Part shown: in pieces, positions 1 to 64,000 of the stretch
Layout: every line of letters begins with the position of its first letter
How positions within the stretch are numbered: the stretch's first letter is position 1
Origin: Bryopsis sp. KO-2023
Lineage: Eukaryota > Chlorophyta > Ulvophyceae > Bryopsidales > Bryopsidaceae
NCBI GenBank assembly: GCA_030272585.1
Contig: BSYQ01000009.1
Span: 5,616,230 to 5,680,229 of the forward strand
DNA length: 64,000 nt
Direction: 5' to 3'
The notes under the pieces: model-generated
Database searches by the model: none
What the model saw: the letters and a program-made list of their open reading frames with translations, nothing else
Told to the model about the DNA's origin: nothing
Made by a program: the position numbers and the translations under genes

Positions 1-14
1 TCCCGGACATCCCC
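1..14 (+). tRNA. trnP-TGG: tRNA-Pro(TGG), 3' end only (window edge)
   Basis: The last 14 bases of the Pro-TGG gene of the preceding unit: end of the T-arm, acceptor strand ACATCCC and discriminator C. The complete gene is at 11468-11539. Confidence 0.9.
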
Positions 15-271
15 CTTGTGTCTGTTGGGATGGATCCGCAACGAATTTCCTGCTTCCCATCAAGAGTCGAGATTCAAGAGTACGCGCCTGCTATGCTTTT
101 TCCTTCCTTTCCTTTTTTTCTTGCCTCTGTGCGCATCTCCCGATGGAATCATGTTCGTTCCATCATGTTAACGTTCTTTGGGAAAACAACGTTCTGAGAT
201 GAGACGGTAGTCCGGAGCATCCACGGATATGGGCGTCAGCGCCCGCCTCCGATCGAGAGCTTTCTGTGTGA

Positions 272-355
272 GCACAGGTGCCCGAGTGGTCTAAGGGGTT
301 AGACTCAAGTTCTAATGGACGTCAGTCCGCGTGGGTTCAAATCCCACCCTGTGCA
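272..355 (+). tRNA. trnL-CAA: tRNA-Leu(CAA)
   Basis: Type II tRNA of 84 nt. The acceptor stem GCACAGG/CCTGTGC is perfect and the discriminator is A, as expected for Leu. Anticodon stem TTAGA/TCTAA encloses CTCAAGT, giving anticodon CAA for UUG codons. A long variable arm follows, then T-loop TTCAAAT. There is no intron and no encoded CCA. A T6 run at 361-366, 5 bases downstream, is a clear Pol III terminator, so this gene should end before Gly-TCC 69 bp away. It is the only Leu gene in the unit. Confidence 0.96.
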
Positions 356-360
356 ACAGA

Positions 361-366
361 TTTTTT
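361..366 (+). terminator. Pol III T6 terminator of tRNA-Leu(CAA)
   Basis: Run of six T starting 5 bases after the mature 3' end, within the usual distance for RNA polymerase III termination. Confidence 0.75.
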
Positions 367-424
367 GGGGGCCTTGGCACAATCGGTGACGGATGTGCTC
401 AATCGACTTTCCTTCCGTAACGTG

Positions 425-496
425 GCGTTGTTAGTCCAACGGTTAGGATACTTGCCTTCCAAGCAAGGGACCCGGGTTCGACTCCCGGACAACGCA
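425..496 (+). tRNA. trnG-TCC: tRNA-Gly(TCC)
   Basis: A 72-nt cloverleaf. The acceptor GCGTTGT/ACAACGC is perfect and the discriminator is A. Anticodon stem CTTGC/GCAAG encloses CTTCCAA, giving TCC for GGA and GGG. The T-arm has TTCGACT. The body, with D-arm AGTCCAACGGTTAGGAT, resembles plant Gly-TCC genes as I remember them. The first T4 downstream is about 25 bp away. It pairs functionally with Gly-GCC at 7532, the other Gly gene of the unit. Confidence 0.96.
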
Positions 497-547
497 GATG
501 TGAGTTATATCGTTCGAATGTTTTACGTCATGCAACAGGTCCGAGCG

Positions 548-1900
548 TGTCGCATTTTCGGCGAAACCACGTCGCTCCTCGGCTGGTGCTCCGATTGACT
601 CGCTCTTGGTGTCTAAAGACGCGTCCCGACGAGATCTATCCATAGGTTTTGATCGGGAGTCAATCGGAGGTCTGGTTGGGGAGTTATGGCCGGTACCGTT
701 TCACGAGAGTCTACGTAAGCGCGATTTTCGGCGAAACGAGGTCGCTCCTCGGCTAGGGCTCCGATTGAGGCGCCCTTGGTGTCAAAAGGAGCGCCTCGAC
801 GAGATCTAACCATAGGTTTTGATCGGAGGTCAATCGGAGGTCTCGTTGAAGAGTTACGGCCGATACCGTTTCACGAGAGTCTACGTAAGCGCGGTTTTCG
901 GCGAAACGAGGTCGCTCCTCGGCTAGGGCTCGGATTGAGACGCCCTTGGTGCCAAAAGGAGCGCCTCGACGAGATCTAGCCATAGGTTTTGATCGGAGGT
1001 CAATCGGAGGTCTCGTTGAAGAGTTATGGCCGATACCGTTTCACGAGAGTCTACGTAAGCGCGGTTTTCGGCGAAACGAGGTCGCTCCTCGGCTAGGGCT
1101 CGGATTGAGACGCCCTTGGTGCCAAAAGGAGGGCCTCGACGAGATCTAGCCATAGGTTTTGATCGGAGGTCAATCGGAGGTCTCGTTGAAGAGTTATGGC
1201 CGATACCGTTTCGGGTGCTAACCGTGAAGCGCGCGCGTGTCGCATTTTCGGCGAAACGATGTCGCTCCTCGGCTAGGGCTCCGATTGAGGCGCCCTTGGT
1301 GTCAAAAGACGCGTCTCGACGAGATCTAGCCATGGGTTTTGATCGGAGGTCAATCGGAGGTCTGGTTTAAGAGTTACGGCCGATACCGTTTCACGAGAGC
1401 CTACGTAAGCGCGATTTTCGGCGAAACGATGTCGCTCCTCGGCTAGGCCTCCGATTGACTCGCTTTTGGTGCCTGAAGACGCGGCTCGATGAGAGCTAGC
1501 CATGAGTTTTGATCGCGAGTCAATCGGAGCTCTGGTTGAAGAGTTATGGCCGATACCGTTTCACGAGAGTCTACGTAAGTGCGATTTTCGGCGAAACGAT
1601 GTCGCTTCTCGGCTGGTGCTCCGATTGACGCGCCCTTGGTGCCTAAAGACGCGTCTCGACAAGACCTATCCGTGGGTACCTCTCCCGAGTCAATCGGAGC
1701 TCTGGTTGGGGAGTTATGGCCGATACCGTTTCGGGTGGTGACCGGGAATCGCGCGCGAGGCGCATTTTCGACGAAACGAGGTCGCTCCTCGGGTAGTGCT
1801 CCGATTGAGGCGCCCTTGGTGTCATAAGACGCGTCTCAACGAGACCAAGCCACAGAAAGTCGTTGCGAGTCAATCGGAGAAGTGGTTGGGGAGCTATGGA
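548..1900. repeat. 170-bp tandem repeat block
   Basis: About eight copies of a ~170-bp repeat fill the 1.5-kb spacer between Gly-TCC and Ala-CGC. Marker motifs recur at 170-bp spacing: TTTTCGGCGAAACGA, GGTTTTGATCGGAGGTCAAT and GAGTTATGGCCGATACCG. Two repeats carry an alternative segment, GGGTGCTAACCGTGAAGCGC near 1213 and a GGGTGGTGACC version near 1733. Short open frames occur on both strands with the same period and are not genes. I see no tRNA or other RNA gene in it. Confidence 0.93.
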
Positions 1901-2018
1901 CAAAAACGTTTGGGGCGCTCTCGCTCCGAGCTCAAGGCGCCCCCATAACTACACCGAAAAGTCATCGTCATCTGAAAGGCGGGATCCTGAGTTCGGCTTG
2001 TCGTTGCAAAAATACGTA

Positions 2019-2091
2019 GGGGGTGTAGCTCAAATGGCAGAGCGCTCGATTCGCATTCGAGAGGCACGGGGATCGATACCCCGCTCCTCCA
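2019..2091 (+). tRNA. trnA-CGC: tRNA-Ala(CGC)
   Basis: A 73-nt tRNA. Anticodon stem CTCGA/TCGAG encloses TTCGCAT, anticodon CGC for GCG. The acceptor GGGGGTG/CTCCTCC keeps the G3:U70 pair that identifies tRNA-Ala to its synthetase, but positions 6 and 67 are T and T, a mismatch. Discriminator A. T-arm CGGGG/CCCCG. It is the most diverged of the three Ala genes. No T4 run lies close downstream; the first is near 2294. Confidence 0.93.
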
Positions 2092-2808
2092 GCCCAGCTT
2101 ATTTGTTGCCTTGGTCAAGAGCCGTTGCTCGTTGGCGGAGTGTGAAAATGCTGTCGTGCAACGGATCCGTTGTATGTGAGGGGTGAGTGAAGGCCAACGG
2201 CTTGAGACGAAAACCAATTTAATAAGAACAACGAAAACCTTTCCCGATTATCGAGGTTCCATTGGGGTAGTTCATTTCAAAATTTCTGGGAATTTTGGTC
2301 GGAAGAGGGTAGGATCGCCCAATTGGTGTTTGGGGAAATTTCGACGTGGAGAGTATATCAACAACTTTGAGAGAGTATGAGAGAGTTTGGTTAATCTAGG
2401 TACTGATACTGAAGGATGAATTCTTTGATTGGAGTAATTGTGTGGAACAATGGTTGCGATAGGGGGGAGTGGCCCCTCAGGAAAAAATATGTAATTATTG
2501 TTATTTCCACGACGACAACAACACCACGCGCCCGAGCCACTATCAACATATCCGTTCCGTCTCACACCGTAGTGCTCCGTACTCATATCTCGTACTCTAT
2601 CCTAGAATAAACCCTCCACCAAATCCCACCGTCATCCTCGTCATTCCTACATCTCAATCAAAATCCTCCGAACGATCCCACTTTCGTCCTCGTCATTTCT
2701 ACGTCCTTACCACCCTTTCCGATCGATCACGATCACTCCCATTTGACACAAAGCACCGTCCGCCTCTTTGGATCGATGATTTGAGGGATGTTTCTCAGCA
2801 ATAGGGGT
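2092..2808. other. Spacer, no gene seen
   Basis: 717 bp between Ala-CGC and Lys-CTT. Its right half is pyrimidine-rich and includes an imperfect tandem duplication of about 55 bp (near 2623-2731, marker ATCCCAC...TCCTCGTCATT). I see no tRNA fold or credible coding sequence. Confidence 0.7.
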
Positions 2809-2881
2809 CGCCCGAGGAGGGGCTCGAACCCTCGACCACAAGATTAAGAGTCTTGCGCTCTACCGACTGAGCTACCCGGGC
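2809..2881 (-). tRNA. trnK-CTT: tRNA-Lys(CTT)
   Basis: Read on the minus strand: acceptor GCCCGGG/CTCGGGC with one G-T pair, discriminator G, D-arm TAGCTCAGTCGGTAGAGC. Anticodon stem CAAGA/TCTTG encloses CTCTTAA, giving CTT for AAG. T-arm GAGGG TTCGAGC CCCTC. 73 nt, no intron. It is the only Lys gene in the unit, so AAA must be read by a tRNA encoded elsewhere. No T4 run follows closely on its strand. Confidence 0.96.
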
Positions 2882-2987
2882 AGACGAAAAAGTGTTCCGG
2901 ATCGCCGTCCACGTCCCCCGTCGCTCCGGCCTTGCGTCGCTGAACGCGGTAGGGGTTAGGTGCCTTCGACGGGGGAGGATTTTTGTA

Positions 2988-3059
2988 TTCGGAGTGGCGC
3001 AGTGGAAGCGTGGTGGGCCCATAACCCACAGGTCCCAGGATCGAAACCTGGCTCCGAAA
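2988..3059 (+). tRNA. trnfM/iMet-CAT: Initiator tRNA-Met(CAT)
   Basis: A 72-nt eukaryotic initiator. The anticodon stem carries three consecutive G:C pairs (GTGGG/CCCAC) around CCCATAA, and the T-loop is ATCGAAA rather than TTCRANN; both mark initiators. The body is very close to plant initiator tRNA as I remember it. One oddity: the first acceptor pair is T1:A72 (TTCGGAG/CTCCGAA) where eukaryotic initiators normally have A1:U72; it is still a weak pair. Discriminator A. A T6 run at 3117-3122 ends the transcript before Ala-TGC. I find no elongator Met gene in the unit. Confidence 0.95.
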
Positions 3060-3116
3060 GGCGTGCGACTCGTGTCGATGGTCGAAAGAAAGGGTCGTAG
3101 CGGAAATTCCGCACCC

Positions 3117-3122
3117 TTTTTT
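3117..3122 (+). terminator. Pol III T6 terminator between iMet and Ala-TGC
   Basis: Six T at 57 bases past the initiator tRNA and 5 bases before Ala-TGC. It follows a short AT/GC inverted motif (GCGGAAATTCCGC). Confidence 0.6.
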
Positions 3123-3127
3123 GCGTG

Positions 3128-3200
3128 GGGGTTGTAGCTCAGATGGTAGAGCGCTTGCTTTGCATGCGAGAGGCACGGGGATCGATGCCCCGCAGCTCCA
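3128..3200 (+). tRNA. trnA-TGC: tRNA-Ala(TGC)
   Basis: A 73-nt tRNA. Acceptor GGGGTTG/CAGCTCC keeps G3:U70; discriminator A. Anticodon stem CTTGC/GCGAG encloses TTTGCAT, giving TGC for GCA. The third stem pair (29:41) is T:G here and in copies 2-4, but C:G in copy 5. Very similar to plant Ala genes. Directly downstream are two partial tRNA-Ala-like 3' halves. Confidence 0.96.
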
Positions 3201-3208
3201 GCCAATTT

Positions 3209-3414
3209 CGTTCTGAGTGAGGCACAGGGCCCCGAATGATCACCGCGACGGAGTATGAGGGTTGCGAGCGGGAGGTGCGGGGATCGAGGCCCCGCACCTC
3301 CGGGCGATTCTGTTTTGAGTGAGGTACGGGCCCCCGAATTATTACCGCGACGGAGTATCAGGGTTGCAAGCGGGAGGTGCAGGGATCGAGGCCCCGCACC
3401 TCCGGGCGATTTTG
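3209..3414 (+). repeat. Tandem duplication with tRNA-Ala-like 3' halves
   Basis: Two blocks of ~103 bp (about 3209-3311 and 3312-3414) share TGAGTGAGG, CCGCGACGGAGTAT and GGGATCGAGGCCCCGCACCT. Each ends in a segment like the variable loop, T-arm and acceptor 3' strand of the preceding Ala gene (CGGGGATCGAGGCCCCG). No 5' half, D-arm or anticodon arm is present, so these look like tRNA-Ala relics. Confidence 0.75.
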
Positions 3415-3882
3415 GCGTGGGAGGGCCCAAAACATGTCCTTCTTGTGACCGGGGTCGGTGCGTCGGTGTCGGGAGGCGCGGGTCGGGTGCTCGAGCCTTC
3501 GGGGGGGAGCGTTCTTTCGTGCTCCGGATGGCCGACGATGGGAGTAGATGGGCGTGACGGCGCGATTAATTTTAAGGTAATGAGTGCATTATAAAATTTA
3601 TTTAGGGGTGCAGGGGGGGGGGCGCGTGACGGCGCGCTTTCTGTAAAGGTATACCGTGGAAAAAATTTTATATGTAGGGGGGGAGGGGGCGCGCAGAAAT
3701 CGTACGACGCGGACTCGACGAGGGGTCGGACGCGGGCCAAAAAATCTCCAAATCCCCCGAGCACGGCCGAAATGGGCCTGTTTTCGCCCGTTTTCCGGGA
3801 AGCCACACTCTATTTAAGCCGGAATGCGCTCCCGAACTCGCGACAAGGCCCTTGAACGCGCCTCCCATGGGTCTCGTGCGCG
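3415..3882. other. Spacer with two poly-G tracts
   Basis: An AT-rich patch (TTAATTTTAAGG, ATAAAATTTATTTAG) is followed by a run of about 10 G near 3613 and a second G-rich run near 3677-3692. The second is interrupted by A only in copy 1, is 13 G in copies 2-4, and differs in length in copy 5. No gene seen. Confidence 0.75.
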
Positions 3883-3955
3883 GACCTTGTGGCCAAATGG
3901 ATAAGGCGTCGGTCTACGAAACCGAAGATTGCAGGTTCGACCCCTGCCAAGGTCG
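3883..3955 (+). tRNA. trnR-ACG: tRNA-Arg(ACG)
   Basis: A 73-nt tRNA. Perfect acceptor GACCTTG/CAAGGTC, discriminator G. Anticodon stem TCGGT/ACCGA encloses CTACGAA; A34 would be edited to inosine to read CGU, CGC and CGA. T-arm GCAGG/CCTGC. One of three Arg genes in the unit. No T4 run separates it from Glu-CTC 79 bp downstream. Confidence 0.96.
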
Positions 3956-4034
3956 ACGGACGTCGGGTTTCGGAGAGCTTCTCCGTCCCGCGACGCGCTC
4001 ATGTAGCGGCCCGGCCGCTTCGGAAACGTGCGCC

Positions 4035-4107
4035 TCCGTCGTAGTCTAGGTGGTTAGGACATGTGGCTCTCACCCACAAGACCCGGGTTCGAGTCCCGGC
4101 GACGGAA
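4035..4107 (+). tRNA. trnE-CTC: tRNA-Glu(CTC)
   Basis: A 73-nt tRNA. Perfect acceptor TCCGTCG/CGACGGA, discriminator A. Anticodon stem TGTGG/CCACA encloses CTCTCAC, giving CTC for GAG. T-arm CCGGG TTCGAGT CCCGG. The only Glu gene in the unit. T4 at 4120-4123, 12 bases downstream, is the likely terminator and may serve Arg-ACG as well. Confidence 0.96.
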
Positions 4108-4192
4108 TCGTCCGCGCCCTTTTCGCCCCCGTGGAGGCGCCCCCTCCGGGCGTTTCGCGACCAGGAGGGCGAGGGAGGAGGAGGGAGCGTGA

Positions 4193-4273
4193 GCAACGGT
4201 GGCCGAGTGGTCAAGGCGTGTGCCTGCTAAGTACATGGGTTATCCCGCGTGAGTTCGAATCTCACCCGTTGCG
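4193..4273 (+). tRNA. trnS-GCT: tRNA-Ser(GCT)
   Basis: Type II tRNA, 81 nt. Perfect acceptor GCAACGG/CCGTTGC, discriminator G as in Ser tRNAs. Anticodon stem TGTGC/GTACA encloses CTGCTAA, giving GCT for AGC/AGU. Variable arm with GGGTTATCCC, T-loop TTCGAAT. The only Ser gene in the unit; UCN codons need tRNAs from elsewhere. A T4 run lies at about 4289, just before the 42-bp minisatellite. Confidence 0.96.
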
Positions 4274-4305
4274 ACGATACTGCTTGTCGTTTTGCGACCT
4301 GACCG

Positions 4306-5134
4306 TCACATCGTCCGGCGACCTCGGCCCGTAACGGTGGGACTTGTCCGTGGCCTCCGGCGACCTCGTTCCGTAGCGATGGGACTTCTCCGTAGTTTCC
4401 GGCGACCTCGGCCCGTAGCGATGGGACTTGTTCGTAGCGATGGGACCTCTCCGTAGCCTCCCGCGACCTCGTCCCGTGACGATGGGACTTCCCCGTAGCC
4501 TCCCGCGACCTCGTCCCGTAGCGATGGGACCTCTCCGTAGCCTCCCGCGACCTCGTCCCGTAGCGATGGGACTTCTCCGTAGCCTCCGGCGACCTCGTCC
4601 TGTGACGATGGGACCTCTCCGTAGCCTCCCGCGACCTCGTCCCGTGACGATGGGACTTCCCCGTAGCCTCCGGCGACCTCGTCCCGTAGCGATGGGACCT
4701 CTCCGTAGCCTCCGCCGACCTCGTCCCGTAGCGATGGGACTTGTCCGTAGCCTCCCGCGACCTCGTCCCGTGACGACGGGACTTCCCCGTAGCCTCCGGC
4801 GACCTCGGCCCGTAGCGATGGGACCTCTCCGTAGCCTCCCGCGACCTCGTCCCGTAGCGATGGGACCTCTCCGTAGCCTCCCGCGACCTCGTCCCGTGAC
4901 GATGGGACCTCTCCGTAGCCTCCCGCGACCTCGTCCCGTAGCGATGGGACCTCTCCGTAGCCTCCCGCGACCTCGTCCCGTAGCGATGGGACCTCTCCGT
5001 AGCCTCCGGCGACCTCGTCCCGTGACGATGGGACTTCTCCGTGGCCTCCGGCGACCTCGTTCCGTAGCGATGGGACCTCTCCGTAGCCTCCAGCGACCTC
5101 GTTCCGTGACGATGGGACTTCTCCGGAGGTTCCC
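4306..5134. repeat. 42-bp minisatellite, block A
   Basis: About 20 copies of a 42-bp repeat, built on GCGATGGGACCTCTCCGTAG and CCTCCCGCGACCTCGTCCCG. One copy near 4430-4440 is shortened and shifts the phase. Because 42 is a multiple of three and few stop codons occur, long open frames appear in several frames on both strands (up to 322 codons). These are by-products of the repeat. It fills the spacer between Ser-GCT and Asn-GTT. Confidence 0.95.
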
Positions 5135-5147
5135 ACGCAAAACGGGT

Positions 5148-5221
5148 CGCTCCCTGCAAGGATCGAACTTGCGACCTTGCGGTTAACAGCCGCACGCTCT
5201 AACCAGCTGAGCTAAGGAAGC
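5148..5221 (-). tRNA. trnN-GTT: tRNA-Asn(GTT)
   Basis: Minus strand, 74 nt. Acceptor GCTTCCT/AGGGAGC with one T-G pair, discriminator G. Anticodon stem TGCGG/CCGCA encloses CTGTTAA, giving GTT for AAC/AAU. T-arm GCAAG TTCGATC CTTGC. On its strand a T4 run (AAAA at 5138-5141 on plus) follows within 10 bases. Block A of the minisatellite begins directly beyond it. Confidence 0.96.
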
Positions 5222-5320
5222 ACGTTTGTCCGTCGTCGGAAGGGGACGCCGTACGCACGGACGACGACGCGACGGCCCGCCGGGTCGCATAGAGGGGTGC
5301 GCGAGGCCGAAACGAGCGGG

Positions 5321-5394
5321 GTGCTCGTGGTGTAGCCGGTTATCACGTCAGTCTCACACACTGAAGGCCCCCGGTTCGAGCCCGGGCGAGCACA
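5321..5394 (+). tRNA. trnV-CAC: tRNA-Val(CAC)
   Basis: 74 nt. Perfect acceptor GTGCTCG/CGAGCAC, discriminator A. Anticodon stem TCAGT/ACTGA encloses CTCACAC, giving CAC for GUG. T-arm CCCGG TTCGAGC CCGGG. It is nearly identical to Val-AAC 290 bp downstream, differing in the D-loop, anticodon stem and anticodon, so the two are probably duplicates. No T4 run lies between them. Confidence 0.96.
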
Positions 5395-5440
5395 AGCTAT
5401 GCGTCGACAGCTTTCGTGTCGCCCCTCCCTCCAATTTCCG

Positions 5441-5632
5441 TAACGATGGGACTTCTCCGTAGCTTGCGACGACCTCTCTTCGTGACGATGGGACTTCTCC
5501 GTGGCCTCCGTCGACCTCTTTCCGTAACGATGGGACTTCTCCGTAGTTTCCGACGCCCGTTCCCCGTAACGATGGGACTTCTCCGTAGCCTCCGGCCACC
5601 TCTTTCCGTGACGATGGGACTTCTCCGGAGGC
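5441..5632. repeat. 42-bp minisatellite, block B
   Basis: Four to five copies of the same 42-bp family as block A, with GTAACGATGGGACTTCTCCG and more varied flanks. It lies between the two Val genes. The separation from block A by Asn and Val-CAC suggests that one duplication carried both the Val gene and the repeat. Confidence 0.93.
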
Positions 5633-5684
5633 TCGGGCACGAGAGAGGTATTTGGGCGCGAGTTTCGGCCACCTCATCGAACAA

Positions 5685-5758
5685 GTGCTCGTGGTGTAGC
5701 TGGTTATCACGTGAGTCTAACACACTCAAGGCCCCCGGTTCGAGCCCGGGCGAGCACA
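5685..5758 (+). tRNA. trnV-AAC: tRNA-Val(AAC)
   Basis: 74 nt with the same acceptor and T-arm as Val-CAC. Anticodon stem TGAGT/ACTCA encloses CTAACAC; A34 would become inosine to read GUU, GUC and GUA. Compared with Val-CAC, the stem pair 27-31 differs at both sides, keeping pairing. A T5 run at 5818-5822 is the first terminator-like run downstream. Confidence 0.96.
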
Positions 5759-6035
5759 CCCAGTCGCTATGAGATTGCCTTGGGCCCAATCGAATGACAC
5801 CGCCAGCGGTGGGGACTTTTTGTCGAGGTAAGTAATGCGTTTGGGTGTGAGTATTGGTTCCGTGAAGTACCGTGACTTTCCCTGCCTCGATTCCATCAGC
5901 ATTGCCCGTGCACGCCCCTGATTTTCTCCCTCCCTCGACGGATGGACAACTCTCTCTCACGCCCCCTTCCTTCATCGCTCTCATCACGTTCCGTTCCACC
6001 GGCTCGCGGCCCATCAAAGTGAAGGGTCCATCCAA

Positions 6036-6107
6036 AGGGGACAACCAGGTTCGAACTGGTGGCCTATCGATCTGCAGTCGATTGCTCTACCACTGAGCTA
6101 TATCCCC
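6036..6107 (-). tRNA. trnC-GCA: tRNA-Cys(GCA)
   Basis: Minus strand, 72 nt. Acceptor GGGGATA/TGTCCCC with one T-G pair; discriminator T, the identity base for Cys. Anticodon stem ATCGA/TCGAT encloses CTGCAGA, giving GCA. T-arm CCAGG... pairs as ACCAG/CTGGT. Lies tail to tail with Val-AAC and head to head with Trp, 97 bp apart. Confidence 0.96.
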
Positions 6108-6204
6108 ACGCTCACGACATTCCGATTCCGGGGTCGGCTTTTGTCCGCAAGTGCCTCTCCGCACGCACGACCATGGCGCGCACGAACGAATCGACAATCG
6201 TTTC

Positions 6205-6276
6205 GGCCTAGTGGCTCAATGGTAGAGCATCCGACTCCAGATCGGAAGGTTGCGCGTTCGATTCGCGTCTGGGTCA
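6205..6276 (+). tRNA. trnW-CCA: tRNA-Trp(CCA)
   Basis: 72 nt. Acceptor GGCCTAG/CTGGGTC with two G-T pairs, discriminator A. Anticodon stem TCCGA/TCGGA encloses CTCCAGA, giving CCA for UGG. T-arm GCGCG TTCGATT CGCGT ends with one G-T pair. A T4 run near 6311 is the likely terminator, just before the AGTACT repeat. Confidence 0.96.
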
Positions 6277-6325
6277 TGGCACGTGTTTGCTTGCCTGCCT
6301 GCCCGTAACGTTTTCGTAAATTCTC

Positions 6326-6450
6326 TTAAGTACTGTTTGTCCTCAAGTACTGGGGGTGGGTTAAGTACTAGGTGCATGTTATGTACTGGGAGCGACTTCA
6401 GTACTCGGGGTGAGGTTGTGTATCGGTCAAGGGTTATGCACTAGATGATG
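6326..6450. repeat. 18-bp repeat with AGTACT palindromes
   Basis: AGTACT occurs at 6329, 6346, 6364 and 6400, with TGTACT at 6382; spacing is 17-18 bp. Two degenerate members follow (TGTATC near 6419, TGCACT near 6437). Each unit is TYAAGTACTNGGGG-like. It lies between Trp and the 3' end of the 5S gene. It could be a plain short tandem repeat or a binding-site array. Confidence 0.8.
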
Positions 6451-6816
6451 CGATCGGTTATGTGTTTTCGATATGTTTTTTTTTTGTCGAGGGAATGAGC
6501 GTCGATCTCTCACCGTCTTTGTGCCCGCTCCCTTCGATGTTGGTGAAATGAGCGTGGTCGTGTGTGTGTGCTCGGTTGGAAGTTTGGTTAGACACGGTGG
6601 AGGGTTAGGCGAATCGATAATGTTACGGTGTTAGAGCGCTACGGATATGGTCGGGACGGGCGATGGTTACGATTCGCTGGGACGAGAACTTCAGACGTTG
6701 AACGGAGCATGCAATTGAGCTCTGTTTTGCTGAATGTTGGACCGCTTGCCTCGGATACGAACGTACATTCTGCCCTCCGCCTTCCATCACGTCCCATCAA
6801 GTCCCATCGGGCGAAA
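6451..6816. other. Spacer 3' of the 5S gene, no gene seen
   Basis: 366 bp holding a T9 run near 6478 and a GT run near 6562. Open frames crossing it continue into the antisense of the 5S gene and are not coding. Confidence 0.6.
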
Positions 6817-6934
6817 AGTTGCCGCTGCCGGGTTTCCTGGGACATCCCTGATCCCGGTACTAATCGGCCCCAACCGTGCTTAATTGGCGAGGTCGGAAGG
6901 GATCGCATGTGTTCACGGTGGTATGACGGCAACA
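6817..6934 (-). rRNA. 5S rRNA: 5S ribosomal RNA
   Basis: Minus strand, about 118 nt; ends are uncertain by 1-2 bases. The ends pair (GTTGCCG with CGGCAAC, helix I). Reading 5' to 3', it contains CATACCACCGTGAAC, CGATCCC, GACCTCG, AATTAAGCACGGTTGGGGCC (box A region) and TTAGTACCGGGATC (box C region), in the order and spacing of eukaryotic 5S rRNA. A TTTT terminator (AAAA at 6814-6817 on plus) follows the 3' end at once. The 3' third (GGGATGTCCCAGG) is more diverged from the familiar consensus, but a CCGGG/CCCGG stem is kept. It is the only rRNA gene in the unit. Confidence 0.87.
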
Positions 6935-7033
6935 CGACCTTCTCACGCCCTCCCGCGACAGGTTCCCTTCGAGGTCGCGTCGCACCCACGCGCACTCATT
7001 TCACCCCATCCCGGTCGCCTCCCGTCGTCACCC

Positions 7034-48537: not shown

Positions 48538-48578
<41 letters not shown>

Positions 48579-55818: not shown

Positions 55819-55897
55819 ACGGACGTCGGGTTTCGGAGAGCTTCTCCGTCCCGCGACGCGCTCATGTAGCGGCCCGGCCGCTTCGGAAACGTGCGCC

Positions 55898-55970: not shown

Positions 55971-56055
55971 TCGTCCGCGCCCTTTTCGCCCCCGTGGAGG
56001 CGCCCCCTCCGGGCGTTTCGCGACCAGGAGGGCGAGGGAGGAGGAGGGAGCGTGA

Positions 56056-56136
56056 GCAACGGTGGCCGAGTGGTCAAGGCGTGTGCCTGCTAAGTACATG
56101 GGTTATCCCGCGTGAGTTCGAATCTCACCCGTTGCG
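56056..56136 (+). tRNA. trnS-GCT: tRNA-Ser(GCT), copy 5
   Basis: Same as 4193-4273. Confidence 0.96.
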
Positions 56137-56168
56137 ACGATACTGCTTGTCGTTTTGCGACCTGACCG

Positions 56169-56997
56169 TCACATCGTCCGGCGACCTCGGCCCGTAACGG
56201 TGGGACTTGTCCGTGGCCTCCGGCGACCTCGTTCCGTAGCGATGGGACTTCTCCGTAGTTTCCGGCGACCTCGGCCCGTAGCGATGGGACTTGTTCGTAG
56301 CGATGGGACCTCTCCGTAGCCTCCCGCGACCTCGTCCCGTGACGATGGGACTTCCCCGTAGCCTCCCGCGACCTCGTCCCGTAGCGATGGGACCTCTCCG
56401 TAGCCTCCCGCGACCTCGTCCCGTAGCGATGGGACTTCTCCGTAGCCTCCGGCGACCTCGTCCTGTGACGATGGGACCTCTCCGTAGCCTCCCGCGACCT
56501 CGTCCCGTGACGATGGGACTTCCCCGTAGCCTCCGGCGACCTCGTCCCGTAGCGATGGGACCTCTCCGTAGCCTCCGCCGACCTCGTCCCGTAGCGATGG
56601 GACTTGTCCGTAGCCTCCCGCGACCTCGTCCCGTGACGACGGGACTTCCCCGTAGCCTCCGGCGACCTCGGCCCGTAGCGATGGGACCTCTCCGTAGCCT
56701 CCCGCGACCTCGTCCCGTAGCGATGGGACCTCTCCGTAGCCTCCCGCGACCTCGTCCCGTGACGATGGGACCTCTCCGTAGCCTCCCGCGACCTCGTCCC
56801 GTAGCGATGGGACCTCTCCGTAGCCTCCCGCGACCTCGTCCCGTAGCGATGGGACCTCTCCGTAGCCTCCGGCGACCTCGTCCCGTGACGATGGGACTTC
56901 TCCGTGGCCTCCGGCGACCTCGTTCCGTAGCGATGGGACCTCTCCGTAGCCTCCAGCGACCTCGTTCCGTGACGATGGGACTTCTCCGGAGGTTCCC
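56169..56997. repeat. 42-bp minisatellite, block A, copy 5
   Basis: Same as 4306-5134. Confidence 0.95.
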
Positions 56998-57010
56998 ACG
57001 CAAAACGGGT

Positions 57011-57084
57011 CGCTCCCTGCAAGGATCGAACTTGCGACCTTGCGGTTAACAGCCGCACGCTCTAACCAGCTGAGCTAAGGAAGC
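57011..57084 (-). tRNA. trnN-GTT: tRNA-Asn(GTT), copy 5
   Basis: Same as 5148-5221. Confidence 0.96.
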
Positions 57085-57183
57085 ACGTTTGTCCGTCGTC
57101 GGAAGGGGACGCCGTACGCACGGACGACGACGCGACGGCCCGCCGGGTCGCATAGAGGGGTGCGCGAGGCCGAAACGAGCGGG

Positions 57184-57257
57184 GTGCTCGTGGTGTAGCC
57201 GGTTATCACGTCAGTCTCACACACTGAAGGCCCCCGGTTCGAGCCCGGGCGAGCACA
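57184..57257 (+). tRNA. trnV-CAC: tRNA-Val(CAC), copy 5
   Basis: Same as 5321-5394. Confidence 0.96.
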
Positions 57258-57303
57258 AGCTATGCGTCGACAGCTTTCGTGTCGCCCCTCCCTCCAATTT
57301 CCG

Positions 57304-57495
57304 TAACGATGGGACTTCTCCGTAGCTTGCGACGACCTCTCTTCGTGACGATGGGACTTCTCCGTGGCCTCCGTCGACCTCTTTCCGTAACGATGGGACT
57401 TCTCCGTAGTTTCCGACGCCCGTTCCCCGTAACGATGGGACTTCTCCGTAGCCTCCGGCCACCTCTTTCCGTGACGATGGGACTTCTCCGGAGGC
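57304..57495. repeat. 42-bp minisatellite, block B, copy 5
   Basis: Same as 5441-5632. Confidence 0.93.
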
Positions 57496-57547
57496 TCGGG
57501 CACGAGAGAGGTATTTGGGCGCGAGTTTCGGCCACCTCATCGAACAA

Positions 57548-57621
57548 GTGCTCGTGGTGTAGCTGGTTATCACGTGAGTCTAACACACTCAAGGCCCCCG
57601 GTTCGAGCCCGGGCGAGCACA
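57548..57621 (+). tRNA. trnV-AAC: tRNA-Val(AAC), copy 5
   Basis: Same as 5685-5758. Confidence 0.96.
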
Positions 57622-57898
57622 CCCAGTCGCTATGAGATTGCCTTGGGCCCAATCGAATGACACCGCCAGCGGTGGGGACTTTTTGTCGAGGTAAGTAATG
57701 CGTTTGGGTGTGAGTATTGGTTCCGTGAAGTACCGTGACTTTCCCTGCCTCGATTCCATCAGCATTGCCCGTGCACGCCCCTGATTTTCTCCCTCCCTCG
57801 ACGGATGGACAACTCTCTCTCACGCCCCCTTCCTTCATCGCTCTCATCACGTTCCGTTCCACCGGCTCGCGGCCCATCAAAGTGAAGGGTCCATCCAA

Positions 57899-57970
57899 AG
57901 GGGACAACCAGGTTCGAACTGGTGGCCTATCGATCTGCAGTCGATTGCTCTACCACTGAGCTATATCCCC
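57899..57970 (-). tRNA. trnC-GCA: tRNA-Cys(GCA), copy 5
   Basis: Same as 6036-6107. Confidence 0.96.
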
Positions 57971-58067
57971 ACGCTCACGACATTCCGATTCCGGGGTCGG
58001 CTTTTGTCCGCAAGTGCCTCTCCGCACGCACGACCATGGCGCGCACGAACGAATCGACAATCGTTTC

Positions 58068-58139
58068 GGCCTAGTGGCTCAATGGTAGAGCATCCGACTC
58101 CAGATCGGAAGGTTGCGCGTTCGATTCGCGTCTGGGTCA
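58068..58139 (+). tRNA. trnW-CCA: tRNA-Trp(CCA), copy 5
   Basis: Same as 6205-6276. Confidence 0.96.
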
Positions 58140-58679
58140 TGGCACGTGTTTGCTTGCCTGCCTGCCCGTAACGTTTTCGTAAATTCTCTTAAGTACTGTT
58201 TGTCCTCAAGTACTGGGGGTGGGTTAAGTACTAGGTGCATGTTATGTACTGGGAGCGACTTCAGTACTCGGGGTGAGGTTGTGTATCGGTCAAGGGTTAT
58301 GCACTAGATGATGCGATCGGTTATGTGTTTTCGATATGTTTTTTTTTTGTCGAGGGAATGAGCGTCGATCTCTCACCGTCTTTGTGCCCGCTCCCTTCGA
58401 TGTTGGTGAAATGAGCGTGGTCGTGTGTGTGTGCTCGGTTGGAAGTTTGGTTAGACACGGTGGAGGGTTAGGCGAATCGATAATGTTACGGTGTTAGAGC
58501 GCTACGGATATGGTCGGGACGGGCGATGGTTACGATTCGCTGGGACGAGAACTTCAGACGTTGAACGGAGCATGCAATTGAGCTCTGTTTTGCTGAATGT
58601 TGGACCGCTTGCCTCGGATACGAACGTACATTCTGCCCTCCGCCTTCCATCACGTCCCATCAAGTCCCATCGGGCGAAA

Positions 58680-58797
58680 AGTTGCCGCTGCCGGGTTTCC
58701 TGGGACATCCCTGATCCCGGTACTAATCGGCCCCAACCGTGCTTAATTGGCGAGGTCGGAAGGGATCGCATGTGTTCACGGTGGTATGACGGCAACA
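58680..58797 (-). rRNA. 5S rRNA: 5S ribosomal RNA, copy 5
   Basis: Same as 6817-6934. Confidence 0.87.
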
Positions 58798-58896
58798 CGA
58801 CCTTCTCACGCCCTCCCGCGACAGGTTCCCTTCGAGGTCGCGTCGCACCCACGCGCACTCATTTCACCCCATCCCGGTCGCCTCCCGTCGTCACCC

Positions 58897-58970
58897 GGCC
58901 GAGTAGCTCAGTTGGTTAGAGCGTCGTGCTAATAACGCGAATGTCGAGGGTTCGATCCCCTTCTTGGCCA
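58897..58970 (+). tRNA. trnI-AAT: tRNA-Ile(AAT), copy 5
   Basis: Same as 7034-7107. Confidence 0.96.
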
Positions 58971-59079
58971 GCAGGGGGACTCCTGTTTGTGTTTACGGAC
59001 GTGAGAAACCTCGTGCACGGAGTCGCAAAGTCCGGGGACTGCTGGGATGCAAGCGACCGGGGTGAGACGAAGGTGACGT

Positions 59080-59152
59080 CACCCGAGGCAGGGATCGAAC
59101 CTGCGGCCTATCGCTTAGGAAACGATCGCTCTATCCACTGAGCTACACGGGC
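59080..59152 (-). tRNA. trnR-CCT: tRNA-Arg(CCT), copy 5
   Basis: Same as 7217-7289. Confidence 0.92.
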
Positions 59153-59394
59153 ATCTCGGAATAGGGATGCAAAAGATCGACAAAACATCGACGCTTCGGG
59201 TGATACGTTCATTTTGTAGTACGAGCGTTGTAGTACGGGTTAGTACGGGTTCCAGGGTGTGACTTCGGAGACGACTCTCGTAAAATTAAATTCTCCTGTC
59301 TTTGTGTCTCAACCACCCTGTGTTCGAGTTGTGTGTGATAAAACCTGATGTCGGGGGGGCATCGAGGGGCTCATACGAAAGCTTTTGATCGTGA

Positions 59395-59465
59395 GCGTTG
59401 ATGGTACAGTGGTAGCATACTACCCTGCCACGGTAGAGACCCGGGTTCGATTCCCGGTCAACGCA
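59395..59465 (+). tRNA. trnG-GCC: tRNA-Gly(GCC), copy 5
   Basis: Same as 7532-7602. Confidence 0.97.
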
Positions 59466-59861
59466 CCACATCATGTGATGACCCACATGATTCTTTCATC
59501 TTCGGTCAATAATTTTTGTCGTGAACTGGCTCCCGCCCCGGGAAGAGAGAGACAGAGTTATACCCCAAAGGGAAAGCGACAAGAACGTCCCTGAAGTGCA
59601 GCAAGATGCGCTTCTCCATGCCCCTCGTCTCTATTGATTCCGCAGCGTCCAATCCCCATCCCCGACACAAGCAGGCTGCCACAACGTTCCCGTCCCTCAT
59701 CAGAACAGCATCAAACTACCAGTTCAGAACGAGAGGATAGCCCGCTCGAGCAGTCAGCACCTAACCCGGATCTTTCGGGAGCTGGAAGTGCATCGTGTCG
59801 CTGCCCTGCTCGTCGAATGATCGTTTTGCTGTCCGATCAAAAGGGGATTTGGCATAATTAT

Positions 59862-59933
59862 CGCCGTTGCCGGGAATTGAACCCGGGTCTCCTGCGTGAC
59901 AGGCAGGAATACTGACCACTATACTACAACGAC
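59862..59933 (-). tRNA. trnD-GTC: tRNA-Asp(GTC), copy 5
   Basis: Same as 7999-8070. Confidence 0.96.
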
Positions 59934-60052
59934 TCCATCACGCCCAAAAGTCGAAACGGGGAACCATGTTGGGCCACGTCTCCTACGGCTGGGTCGCATT
60001 GTCACCCGAGGGACAACGTTTGTGGAGGGCAATTTGGGCGATCGAGACATGT

Positions 60053-60059
60053 GCGACTT

Positions 60060-60100
<41 letters not shown>

Positions 60101-60125
60101 TCGTGTTCGATCCACGAAAGTCGCA
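60053..60125 (+). tRNA. trnF-GAA: tRNA-Phe(GAA), copy 5
   Basis: Same as 8190-8262. Confidence 0.97.
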
Positions 60126-60251
60126 CTCGACTATGTTGGTCAAATATTCCGACCCTGTTTTTATGCTTTTTTTTCTCTTCCGGACCAGCCGGATGAACGT
60201 GACGCTCGGGGAAGAACGGTATATCCGCAAGGAGGAACTTTTCGAATGAAG

Positions 60252-60323
60252 GGCGCTATAGTGTAGTGGTTATCACATTGGACTCTGAATCCAATGACCC
60301 GAGTTCGAATCTCGGTAGTGCCT
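60252..60323 (+). tRNA. trnQ-CTG: tRNA-Gln(CTG), copy 5
   Basis: Same as 8389-8460. Confidence 0.96.
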
Positions 60324-60482
60324 CCCAGTTATCCATGTGTGGTGGGTTTTTCACGTGGCGGGGTGGGGGAACGTCTTCCTTCTTGAAGGTTTCGGAGAAA
60401 AAAACCGAATTCCGCAAAAGACCCGACCAAATTCGTCCTCCAGAGACGATGAAAGACGCAACCACGCCGAAAAAATCGTGAT

Positions 60483-60555
60483 GGGGATGTAGCTCAAATG
60501 GCAGAGCGCTCGCTTAGCATGCGAGAGGTACGGGGATCGATACCCCGCATCTCCA
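60483..60555 (+). tRNA. trnA-AGC: tRNA-Ala(AGC), copy 5
   Basis: Same as 8620-8692. Confidence 0.97.
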
Positions 60556-60905
60556 CTCATCTATTGAAAATCGTTGCCAAAATTGTTCTTTGAAGTGTGC
60601 TTGTTGCCGGAGATGGGCCGTCACTTTGAACACCAAACCAAACCGGACATGTTCGACAAGTTAGACCGGTCTGGACGGGTTCGACAGGACGGAATATGCC
60701 TAGTCCGGTTCGGTTTGTCGAACCTGTCAGGCATCTTGTCTAAGAAACTGTCTAGAATTAGTGTGGAACCTGTTTGGACCGATGAATCTGTGTAGACCGA
60801 TTTTTTTCTTCTCTCAACGGACCGGACCGATCCAAATCTGTCCGGTCCGGTCTCGTTATGTTGAACCGGTAAACCAGCAATCCGGTTGCTAGCCCGTCTC
60901 AGCTA

Positions 60906-61608
60906 GTTAGGAAACTTTAGGAAGTAACGAAACTCACGCGTTAATTCAGGTTGGTTAGGAAACTTTAGGAAGGAACGAAACTTAAGCGTATCGATTTAGG
61001 CTAGTGAAGAAAGTTACGAAACTTAAGCGTCTCGATTTGGGTTGGTTAGAGAACTTTGGAAAATAACGAAACTTAAGCGTTTCGATCTAGGCTAGTCAAG
61101 AAAGTTACGAAACTTAAGCCATCCGATACAGGTTAGTTGGGAAACTTTAGAAAGTAACGAAACTTAAGCGTCTCGATTTGGGTTGGTTAGAGAACTTTGG
61201 AAAATAACGAAACTTAAGCGTTTCGATCTAGGCTAGTCAAGAAAGTTACGAAACTTAAGCCATCCGATATAGGTTAGTTGGGAAACTTTAGAAAGTAACG
61301 AAACTTGAGCGTCTCGATTTGGGTTGGTTAGAGAACTTTGGAAAATAACGAAACTTAAGCGTTTCGATCTAGGCTAGTCAAGAAAGTTACGAAACTTAAG
61401 CCATCCGATATAGGTTAGTTGGGAAACTTTAGAAAGTAACGAAACTTGAGCGTCTCGATTTGGGTTGGTTAGAGAACTTTGGAAAATAACGAAACTTAAG
61501 CGTTTGGATTCAGGCTAGTCAAGAAAGCTACGAAACTTAAGCCATCCGATTTAGGTTAGTTGGGAAACTTTCGAAAATAACGAAACTTAAGCGTTCCGAC
61601 TCAAGTTT
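60906..61608. repeat. 141-bp repeat block, copy 5
   Basis: Same as 9043-9745. Confidence 0.95.
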
Positions 61609-61660
61609 GTGGTGACACCATTTCAACTTGAGCAATAACAAACCCGTCACGAGCGAGTGG

Positions 61661-61732
61661 TGTTCGCGGGGAGAATCGAACTCCCGTTTCTTGAGCCACA
61701 ATCAAGTGTCCTGACCACTAGACGACGCGAAC
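61661..61732 (-). tRNA. trnH-GTG: tRNA-His(GTG), copy 5
   Basis: Same as 9798-9869. Confidence 0.96.
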
Positions 61733-61830
61733 TCACGATTGAGAAGGGTGTTGTCGACGTTTCATGCTTGCTCACACACCCAACCTCGTCAAGCACGAAC
61801 AAATGTCCCATCGAAGATATCTTGAGCGAA

Positions 61831-61904
61831 GCTCCTTTAGCTCAGTTGGTTAGAGCACCCGTTTAGTAAGCGGGAGGTCCTGAGTTCAACTCTCAGAGGG
61901 AGCA
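61831..61904 (+). tRNA. trnT-AGT: tRNA-Thr(AGT), copy 5
   Basis: Same as 9968-10041. Confidence 0.96.
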
Positions 61905-61972
61905 ATAATTGTTTCGTGAGGTAATTTATGGGGAATGTATTAAGTAGGAACGCGGTGATCAATTGATCGACC

Positions 61973-62057
61973 CCGACGATAGCTCAGTTGGCAGAGCGGA
62001 GGACTGTAATAGAGTTCAGATATCCTTAGGTCGCCGGTTCGATTCCGGCTCGTCGGA
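61973..62057 (+). tRNA. trnY-GTA: tRNA-Tyr(GTA), copy 5
   Basis: Same as 10110-10194; intron at 62010-62021. Confidence 0.96.
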
Positions 62058-62130
62058 CGAAGCTGTTCCCGCTCGGATAAATCTGATCCAAATTGCCTCA
62101 AAATACGTAACTTGGGCCAAGAAATCGTGT

Positions 62131-62203
62131 GCACTCGTGGCGCAATGGATAGCGTATCAGACTTCGGATCTGAGGGTTGCGAGTTCGAGTCTCGTCGGGT
62201 GCA
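62131..62203 (+). tRNA. trnR-TCG: tRNA-Arg(TCG), copy 5
   Basis: Same as 10268-10340. Confidence 0.96.
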
Positions 62204-62383
62204 GTATAGTTCTCAATATATACGAGAATATATTGAATATGTTGTAAAATATATATTTTGGACCAACAAAAGGTTTGGAAGAAAAGACTTGAGACTCAGT
62301 ACTTAAGAGTTTTGCGCTTTGTAAAATTCAGGGATTCGGGGATTCCAAAAGCTTTAGGGTTTTCAGGTTTTTAGTTTTTTTTT

Positions 62384-62667
62384 GTTTTCTTAGGTTTTTT
62401 AGGTTTTTTAGGGTTTAGGGTTTAGGGTTTAGGGGGTTTAGGGTTTAGGGGGTTTAGCATTTAGGGGGTTTAGGGTTTAGGGTTTAGGGTTTAGGGTTTA
62501 GGGTTTAGGGTTTAGGGTTTAGGGTTTAGGGTTTAGGGTTTAGGGTTTAGGGTTTAGGGTTTAGGGTTTAGGGTTTAGGGTTTAGGGTTTAGGGTTTAGG
62601 GTTTAGGGTTTAGGGTTTAGGGTTTAGGGTTTAGGGTTTAGGGGTTTAGGGTTTAGGGTTTAGGGGT
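62384..62667. repeat. Telomere-type (TTTAGGG)n tract, copy 5
   Basis: Same short form as 39339-39622. Confidence 0.96.
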
Positions 62668-63141
62668 TGGGCGCTAGAACCGTGGAGTCAGGTGTTTAGA
62701 CTTTGGCGCTTAGAGTTAGGACGTGGGAGTCCGGAAAGTTAGCCGTTGAGAATTAGGACTTGGGACCTAGGACCTTGAACTTAGAAAAGTTAGGCGATAG
62801 AAGTTAAGACTTAGGAATGTTCAACGTTTGGAGTAAGGACTTCGGACTTTGGACGTTCGAAAGTTTGGTAGTGTCACTTAGGACTTTGGACTTAGGCCTG
62901 TAGACTAAGGACTTTGGAGATAGGCCCTAGGAGCTAGGAAAGCTAGGAAAGTCAGGCGTTTAGACTTCGGACTGACGACTTCGGAATGTTAGGCGTTTGG
63001 AGTTAGGACTTTGGACTTTAGTCTTTGGAACGTTTGGAGTTGGGCCTTCAGACTTGGGGAAGTTACGAGTTGGGGCGTTAGACTTAGGAAGCTTAGGAGT
63101 TGGGACATTGGAGTTCGGAAAGATAGGAGTCAAGGCAGGAT
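62668..63141. repeat. Degenerate TTAGGACTT-type repeat, copy 5
   Basis: Same as 10807-11280. Confidence 0.7.
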
Positions 63142-63172
63142 CTAGGGAAAGCGGGTGATTAAAAAATCGAGA

Positions 63173-63244
63173 GGGATGTTGGTCTAGTGGTATGATTCTC
63201 GCTTAGGGTGCGAGAGGCCCCGGGTTCAATTCCCGGACATCCCC
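63173..63244 (+). tRNA. trnP-AGG: tRNA-Pro(AGG), copy 5
   Basis: Same as 11312-11383. Confidence 0.96.
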
Positions 63245-63328
63245 TCACTCTTTGTGGGCGATCTCGTGTGTGCCTTGCACGAGCTCGGCAACGTGCATGG
63301 CCTCCCGTTAACGAGGAAAGAACGAGAT

Positions 63329-63400
63329 GGGATGTTGGTCTAGTGGTATGATTCTCGCTTTGGGTGCGAGAGGCCCCGGGTTCGATTCCCGGACATCCCC
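63329..63400 (+). tRNA. trnP-TGG: tRNA-Pro(TGG), copy 5
   Basis: Same as 11468-11539. Confidence 0.96.
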
Positions 63401-63657
63401 CTTGTGTCTGTTGGGATGGATCCGCAACGAATTTCCTGCTTCCCATCAAGAGTCGAGATTCAAGAGTACGCGCCTGCTATGCTTTTTCCTTCCTTTCCTT
63501 TTTTTCTTGCCTCTGTGCGCATCTCCCGATGGAATCATGTTCGTTCCATCATGTTAACGTTCTTTGGGAAAACAACGTTCTGAGATGAGACGGTAGTCCG
63601 GAGCATCCACGGATATGGGCGTCAGCGCCCGCCTCCGATCGAGAGCTTTCAGTGTGA

Positions 63658-63741
63658 GCACAGGTGCCCGAGTGGTCTAAGGGGTTAGACTCAAGTTCTA
63701 ATGGACGTCAGTCCGCGTGGGTTCAAATCCCACCCTGTGCA
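63658..63741 (+). tRNA. trnL-CAA: tRNA-Leu(CAA), copy 6
   Basis: Same as 272-355. Confidence 0.96.
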
Positions 63742-63810
63742 ACAGATTTTTTGGGGGCCTTGGCACAATCGGTGACGGATGTGCTCAATCGACTTTCCTT
63801 CCGTAACGTG

Positions 63811-63882
63811 GCGTTGTTAGTCCAACGGTTAGGATACTTGCCTTCCAAGCAAGGGACCCGGGTTCGACTCCCGGACAACGCA
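63811..63882 (+). tRNA. trnG-TCC: tRNA-Gly(TCC), copy 6
   Basis: Same as 425-496. Confidence 0.96.
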
Positions 63883-63933
63883 GATGTGAGTTACATCGTT
63901 CGAATGTTTTACGTCATGCAACAGGTCCGAGCG

Positions 63934-64000
63934 TGTCGCATTTTCGGCGAAACCACGTCGCTCCTCGGCTGGTGCTCCGATTGACTCGCTCTTGGTGTCT
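63934..64000. repeat. 170-bp tandem repeat block, copy 6 (window edge)
   Basis: Start of the block described at 548-1900, cut by the window end. Confidence 0.9.

Follow-up and report, generated by a model that had tools for sequence, protein, structure and literature searches.

Tandem 28-gene units of tRNA and 5S rRNA genes at three contig ends in the green alga Bryopsis sp. KO-2023

Introduction

Can a nuclear genome draw much of its supply of transfer RNA (tRNA) genes, together with 5S ribosomal RNA (rRNA) genes, from a single long repeat unit? The question is raised by a stretch of 64,000 nucleotides (nt), hereafter the window, from the ulvophyte Bryopsis sp. KO-2023 (assembly GCA_030272585.1, contig BSYQ01000009.1, here C9, positions 5,616,230-5,680,229); since C9 ends at 5,680,229 bp, the end of the window is also the end of the contig. 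The genome comprises 91,088,769 bp in 28 contigs, among which one of 91,672 bp is presumably the plastid contig, from an rbcL gene named by eye, and one of 356,152 bp presumably the mitochondrial one, from a cox3 gene named in the same way. A sequence-only reading of the window had described an 11.5-kb cassette of 27 tRNA genes and a 5S gene, amplified head to tail, and had proposed that the cell obtains bulk tRNA and 5S from one homogenized locus, in analogy to ribosomal DNA (rDNA). The analyses reported here support with good confidence the view that the window covers the outermost part of a nuclear tandem array, named array A, which is made of 28-gene units, reaches the ends of three contigs and is a main tRNA source; as part of the same explanation, array A and two other array types on contig C5 would provide much of the nuclear tRNA gene supply.

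Organization of the repeat unit

The window has 147 tRNA genes according to ARAGORN and 148 RNAs according to cmscan at gathering thresholds, the latter being 142 tRNAs and six 5S rRNAs; the five copies of tRNA-Val(AAC) are missing from the cmscan list and score 60 bits under laxer filters. With these laxer filters all the 27 tRNAs and the 5S of the first unit were recovered at 54-86 bits, together with one sub-threshold chance match. The array A unit is 11,525 bp long. The distances from one tRNA-Leu(CAA) to the next in the window are 11,525, 11,525, 17,291, 11,523 and 11,522 bp, and they delimit five units on the + strand: unit 1 (272..11796), unit 2 (11797..23321), which has one mismatch to unit 1, unit 3 (23322..40612), unit 4 (40613..52135) and unit 5 (52136..63657), followed by the beginning of a further unit (63658..64000) that is cut by the end of C9. 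Both gene finders and the unit lengths thus confirm the head-to-tail cassette. The units of the window are 99.85-100% identical across their aligned parts, as their description as near-identical implied; the same 28 genes are not intact in all of them, however, since unit 3 is interrupted inside tRNA-Arg(TCG), after unit position 10015, and resumes at unit position 6566, with a mobile-element fragment and a fused 5S gene that add about 5.77 kb.

The gene at 10110..10195 (+), found by both programs, was labelled Ile-AAT by ARAGORN; this label was rejected, as the sequence reads as an intron-bearing tRNA-Tyr(GTA), an identity that we assume from features of plant tRNA-Tyr. The unit therefore has 27 different anticodons and serves all 20 amino acids, besides 5S. 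Its sole Met gene is the initiator, with the T-loop ATCGAAAC, which we take to be a hallmark of initiator tRNA-Met. The unit is without elongator Met, Lys-TTT, Ile-TAT, Glu-TTC, Ser-AGA and Leu-AAG, among others, so that the tRNA set called near-complete is complete for amino acids but not for anticodons. It also differs from the unit of a conventional 5S rDNA array, which would hold 5S and spacer only. As to protein genes, eight of the 30 stop-to-stop open reading frames (ORFs) of at least 100 amino acids in the first 12 kb, and the ORF of the element fragment, had no match in Pfam that exceeded the cut-off (best E 0.0019); the earlier claim that the unit holds no host protein gene stands for these ORFs.

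Array A as a source of tRNA genes

Array A was located on C5, C9 and C10 by a 5S pattern, with 24 of its 26 matches in the array and the remaining two on C1 and in another part of C9, and by a pattern of tRNA-Trp plus flank, with all 23 matches in the array. Genome-wide matches of tRNA genes were then counted with up to three mismatches for the isotypes tested (Trp, initiator Met and His), backwards-pattern controls giving 0. All the 23 matches for Trp and all the 23 for initiator Met lie in array A and are identical to the query; the 29 matches for His are likewise identical, and 26 of them belong to array A, while the remaining three lie on C4, on C16 and in a relic of the array on C15. For initiator Met and Trp, no tRNA genes outside array A were found in the assembly within three mismatches. 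For Gln-TTG no match and for Val-TAC no convincing match was obtained with patterns that were strict, and possibly too strict, so that absence is not claimed.

A restriction of 5S genes to the arrays was considered and rejected. Among 47 5S candidates scored, 23 belong to array A, 18 to a separate cluster on C13 (C13:74535-114169, at least 18 genes) and six lie elsewhere, all these counts being lower bounds; 5S is also present as single copies.

Two other array types were found on C5, both interstitial. Array B (L031, C5:3675001-3682000, with other C5 sites at 2.79-4.00 Mb) is made of 3,193-bp units that contain 12 tRNAs: Ser-CGA, Asp-GTC, Ser-AGA, Leu-CAG, an intron-bearing Met that is presumably the elongator, Arg-TCT, Thr-CGT, Pro-CGG, Thr-TGT, Ile-TAT, Leu-AAG and Glu-TTC. 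Its marker, Arg-TCT, has 53 matches, 47 on C5, most of them at the spacing of array B, and six on C2, C4, C9 and C14. Array C (L029, C5:5825001-5835000) carries eight tRNAs (Gly-CCC, Leu-AAG, Met, Leu-CAG, Ser-AGA, Ser-CGA, Lys-TTT and Gly-GCC) and 5S. In the 100 matches listed out of 225 for the Gly-CCC pattern, 82 exact and eight one-mismatch matches all fall at 5.73-6.16 Mb of C5, the other ten being Gly-GCC; the array forms two opposed blocks, at 5.73-5.89 Mb (+) and 6.00-6.16 Mb (-), with about 90 Gly-CCC genes among the matches listed, mostly 2.8-3.0 kb apart.

Arrays B and C carry mostly different anticodons from array A: A and B have only Asp-GTC in common, and A and C only Gly-GCC, besides 5S. 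Conversely, B and C have five anticodons in common and a stretch of 84% identity. The single anticodon common to A and B compares with 7.0 expected if both sets were drawn at random from an assumed 46 anticodons (P(<=1) 5e-5), although such gene sets do not represent random samples. With all units complete, the three arrays would hold roughly 1,900 tRNA genes (23 x 27 + 47 x 12 + 90 x 8, the 90 being those among the matches listed). Outside array B, seven high-scoring single Ile-TAT tRNA genes were observed over 0.6 Mb of another contig (C12:868828-1501504).

The units of array A resemble each other more closely inside one locus than across loci, as in rDNA. Among six near-full-length C9 units, five differ pairwise by 0-4 substitutions, and the most divergent one, which is unit 5, nearest to the contig end, by 11-15; two of the few differences within C9 are 7-bp indels in a tract of TTTAGGG repeats. 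Against one C5 unit, C9 units show 284-286 substitutions and 984-991 gap columns. Genes and gene-proximal spacers were compared between loci, spacers longer than 400 bp being represented by 60 nt from each end. Between C9 and C5, the 28 genes have 6 edits in 2,138 nt and the spacers 118 in 3,828 (Fisher p 1.5e-16). Between C9 and C10, all 28 genes have 19 edits in 2,138 nt; when tRNA-Arg(TCG) is left out because of its insert, genes have 4 in 2,063 and spacers 42 in 3,828 (Fisher p 6.5e-5), two of the four remaining gene edits being in tRNA-Val(CAC), which also bears an insert in the C10 units used. The genes of array A are constrained relative to their spacers.

Taken together, the homogeneity of C9, the gene counts for Trp, initiator Met and His and the constraint on the genes support the proposed analogy to rDNA, in that array A is a homogenized tandem array and very probably a main tRNA source. 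The notion of one locus was not sustained, since array A ends three contigs and has left a relic on C15, arrays B and C supply other anticodons and 5S is also found on C13.

Contig ends and telomere repeats

C5, C9 and C10 all end inside array A, at their right ends and with the array in the same (+) orientation. The spacing of units differs by locus: on C9 they are about 11.52 kb apart, on C5 about 11.03 and 11.55 kb, and on C10, where they contain inserts, further. Because no contig extends past the array and one junction is garbled, unit counts refer to assembled units only.

Telomere repeats were surveyed in 40 contig-end samples outside array A, corresponding to the left ends of C1-C20, 15 right ends and the left ends of C21-C25, with the C6 and C24 left samples starting with N. 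Long TTTAGGG/CCCTAAA telomeres, with about 100 copies per 700 bp, were present at 13 of the 40 ends, among them C5 left and C9 left, and TTTAGGG is therefore the telomere repeat of this organism. Lower numbers of copies were found at C7 left (8) and C12 right (18), and none at C10 left. On C1 the telomere extends as far as about 3.9 kb, and beyond it lies a repeat mimicking tRNA B boxes; a subtelomeric tRNA cluster suspected there from B-box matches was rejected, as the 7 kb read (C1:2501-9500) contain no tRNA.

The same repeat is found within array A. In unit 1 it forms a tract of 261 bp (10544..10804, +) with its G-strand facing the contig end, and such a tract, in the same direction, is present in every complete unit examined, namely all units of C9 and C10 and, on C5, four tracts in 38 kb read. 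The innermost unit of C9 starts at the edge of a TTTAGGG tract, beside a lone TTTAGGGTTAG. Furthermore, a rearranged relic of array A with Ala-AGC, His, Thr and Tyr genes (C15:33282-35997; L075:1782-4497) lies 33-36 kb from the left-end telomere of C15 in a polarity that matches array A, and on C16 a His gene, recognized from the His match alone, lies at 39 kb on the matching strand. A chromosome-end position of array A is likely rather than shown, because no telomere is seen beyond it.

Alternative explanations

Several observations weigh against array A being a main tRNA source, homogenized and placed at chromosome ends. Only 9 of its 28 genes, which are predicted from sequence, have at least four consecutive T in the 40 nt downstream (shuffled sequences have a mean of 5.0, and 3.7% of them reach 9), a weaker result than for array B (6 of 12) or array C (6 of 9). 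The three contigs C5, C9 and C10 all stop inside the array, with no telomere beyond it, and none is present at the other end of C10. Of the two inner array edges compared, those of C9 and C10, the latter lies inside tRNA-Ala(AGC) and not at a TTTAGGG tract, unlike the former. The His gene on C4 is internal to its contig, and the absence of genes elsewhere is limited by the assembly, parts of which read N. A junction outside the window, at about C9:5609190-5610360 (L014:2960-4126), is garbled, with about 75% identity and a mixture of two unit registers; it is probably an assembly error, and the assembly is imperfect there. Finally, both the homogenization within a locus and the spread among chromosome ends are deduced from the pattern of the repeats only.

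Array A could instead be interstitial, like arrays B and C on C5, and its contigs could break where they do because a long repeat is hard to assemble; long arrays do break assemblies, and the lack of a telomere beyond array A fits this view. It does not readily explain why all three arrays lie at right contig ends in + orientation, with no contig found that carries the opposite flank, why C5 and C9 have telomeres at their other ends, or why the polarity of the C15 relic, at 33-36 kb from a telomere, and the strand of the C16 His gene agree with array A. An interstitial position is thus unlikely, though it keeps appreciable weight.

It seems improbable that array A is a subtelomeric satellite, selfish or neutral, that has taken up tRNA genes, with most copies silent and dispensable. 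The contig-end position, the embedded satellites and telomeric tract, the weak terminators and the mobile elements inside tRNA genes of some units would all suit such a satellite, but the initiator Met and Trp genes are found nowhere else within three mismatches, and in both comparisons between loci the genes have diverged less than the spacers. An assembly artefact, in which one or few units were expanded by graph repeats or mis-joins, agrees with three loci running off contig ends and with the garbled C9 junction, but is very improbable given the distinct unit spacings of the three loci, the 284-286 locus-specific substitutions that separate C9 from C5, the TTTAGGG-tract indels specific to units and the different insert patterns of the loci, and it is largely rejected as an account of the arrays' existence, though not of their copy number.

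Possible mechanism of amplification

For array A as a chromosome-end tandem array, each 11.5-kb unit would represent 28 RNA genes transcribed by RNA polymerase III. Near-identity within C9 and divergence from C5 are as expected from unequal exchange or conversion inside one locus, which may homogenize the units, with exchange between loci presumably being rarer. The presence of the array at several ends in one polarity suggests that it may have spread by subtelomeric recombination, possibly seeded by the TTTAGGG tracts, and the block structure would link the dosage of many tRNAs. Telomere-linked amplification is plausible, but unproven.

In yeast, Y' elements are tandem subtelomeric blocks with tracts of telomere repeats between copies, in telomere polarity; they encode a helicase and no tRNAs. 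Array A resembles them, as its tandem blocks have one telomeric tract per copy in the polarity of a chromosome end; it differs in being a block of RNA genes, with no helicase among the eight unit ORFs run against Pfam. It can be proposed, tentatively, that array A is a telomere-linked, Y'-like chromosome-end element with an essential and balanced cargo of tRNA and 5S genes, where recombination among the TTTAGGG tracts of the units amplifies the block and moves it from one chromosome end to another. If this were true, subtelomere recombination would set the gene dosage of initiator and Trp tRNAs, and array A may also buffer chromosome ends.

Comparison with known systems

The nearest kind to array A is represented by the tRNA arrays of Entamoeba, which are tandem units of several tRNA genes, some with 5S, separated by short repeats; almost all tRNA genes of E. 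histolytica are in such arrays (PMC2652664). Array A is also composed of head-to-tail units with several tRNA genes and 5S, and the share of genes in arrays, for the isotypes tested, is given by the Trp, initiator Met and His counts for array A reported above and by 47 of 53 Arg-TCT matches on C5. The differences concern size and number: the largest Entamoeba unit reported in that source is 2,364 bp long, with six tRNAs and 5S, and 20-26 array types are described per species (PMC2652664), compared to 11,525 bp, 27 tRNAs and 5S for array A and at least three array types in the Bryopsis genome. The latter also differs in having canonical TTTAGGG telomere repeats and a plastid contig.

In human and mouse, a tRNA tandem repeat (1q23.3 in human) has a GC-rich, homogenized unit of 7.3 and 7.6 kb, respectively, with genes on both strands (PMC4041453). 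Array A is similar in its long homogenized unit and in the presence of tRNA genes on both strands; however, the human repeat is described with five tRNA genes, which also occur elsewhere in the genome, and with no mention of 5S in that description (PMC4041453), whereas array A has 27 tRNAs and 5S. The statement that the unit is far outside the known examples had been made on a comparison set that omitted the human 7.3-kb array. Tandem duplication and clustering of tRNA genes are also common to plants and green algae, with 56% of tRNA genes clustered in Chlamydomonas and 41% in Volvox and plant clusters of 2 to 110 genes (PMC12652284; PMC2888827); the repeated combinations described there hold two to five tRNA isotypes (PMC12652284), as compared to the 27 tRNAs of array A. 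No earlier report of array A in Bryopsidales is among the literature matches listed, a scope that excludes the genome paper.

Compared to Entamoeba, a distant alga thus goes further, with one repeat unit carrying tRNAs for all 20 amino acids; since this unit also has the only initiator and Trp genes found, much of the translation machinery has its dosage coupled physically. For the Entamoeba arrays, a location and role at chromosome ends were proposed, still untested when PMC2652664 was written; the position of array A at contig ends, near telomere repeats, provides an independent case for this proposal. Array A is also a system for studying the concerted evolution of RNA polymerase III genes and of the elements that insert in tRNA genes.

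Gene order in unit 1

The genes of unit 1 were called by both ARAGORN and cmscan, unless otherwise stated. The unit starts with tRNA-Leu(CAA) (272..355, +) and tRNA-Gly(TCC) (425..496, +), followed by 7.5 copies of a 170-bp satellite (554..1852), and continues with tRNA-Ala(CGC) (2019..2091, +), tRNA-Lys(CTT) (2806..2882, -), initiator tRNA-Met(CAT) (2988..3059, +, with the T-loop as further evidence), tRNA-Ala(TGC) (3128..3200, +), tRNA-Arg(ACG) (3883..3955, +), tRNA-Glu(CTC) (4035..4107, +) and tRNA-Ser(GCT) (4193..4273, +). Blocks of a 42-bp satellite (4314..5125) contain the longest open frames of the unit, of 301-323 amino acids. Beyond them lie tRNA-Asn(GTT) (5145..5222, -), tRNA-Val(CAC) (5321..5394, +), tRNA-Val(AAC) (5685..5760, +; ARAGORN, and cmscan with laxer filters), tRNA-Cys(GCA) (6036..6107, -), tRNA-Trp(CCA) (6205..6276, +) and the 5S rRNA gene (6816..6934, -; cmscan, 86.4 bits).

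The second half of the unit comprises tRNA-Ile(AAT) (7034..7107, +), tRNA-Arg(CCT) (7215..7290, -), tRNA-Gly(GCC) (7532..7605, +), tRNA-Asp(GTC) (7999..8070, -), which is the anticodon common to arrays A and B, tRNA-Phe(GAA) (8190..8263, +), tRNA-Gln(CTG) (8388..8464, +) and tRNA-Ala(AGC) (8620..8693, +). After a AACTTAAG-rich satellite with a period of about 141 bp (9085..9742), tRNA-His(GTG) (9795..9869, -) and tRNA-Thr(AGT) (9968..10041, +) precede the tRNA-Tyr already described and tRNA-Arg(TCG) (10267..10341, +); the TTTAGGG tract separates the latter from tRNA-Pro(AGG) (11312..11383, +) and tRNA-Pro(TGG) (11468..11540, +).

Mobile elements in tRNA genes

Two of these genes are targets of mobile elements. 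On C10, tRNA-Val(CAC) is interrupted in its A-box part by a two-ORF element with a 13-bp target duplication (L015:9904-10000 and L016:1-6847), which is present in two of the three C10 units, the second copy spanning L018/L019. Its open frames are of 553 and 1118 amino acids, and the long one has an RVT_1 domain (E 1.8e-20) and matches LINE-1 ORF2 structures, so that the element appears to be an L1-like retrotransposon without long terminal repeats.

A second element occupies the same position of tRNA-Arg(TCG) on C5 (L027:856-7689), C9 (window 33337-35654) and C10 (L017:2083-8298), its copies being 93-97% alike over their longest aligned stretches. It is apparently associated with a small target deletion and has on C10 two open frames, of 656 and 794 amino acids; no credible domain was found in the ORFs searched. 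In unit 3 of the window, the first 20 nt of the interrupted tRNA-Arg(TCG) (33317..33336, +) are followed by a 2,318-bp fragment (33337..35654, -), 94.8% identical to part of the 6.2-kb element in the C10 gene, to which a 5S gene lacking its last ~21 nt is fused (35655..35752, -; cmscan, 61.2 bits). Insertion at specific sites of tRNA genes is described for Dada DNA transposons (PMC3706591). In the C15 relic, the match to array A stops at the insertion point of tRNA-Arg(TCG).

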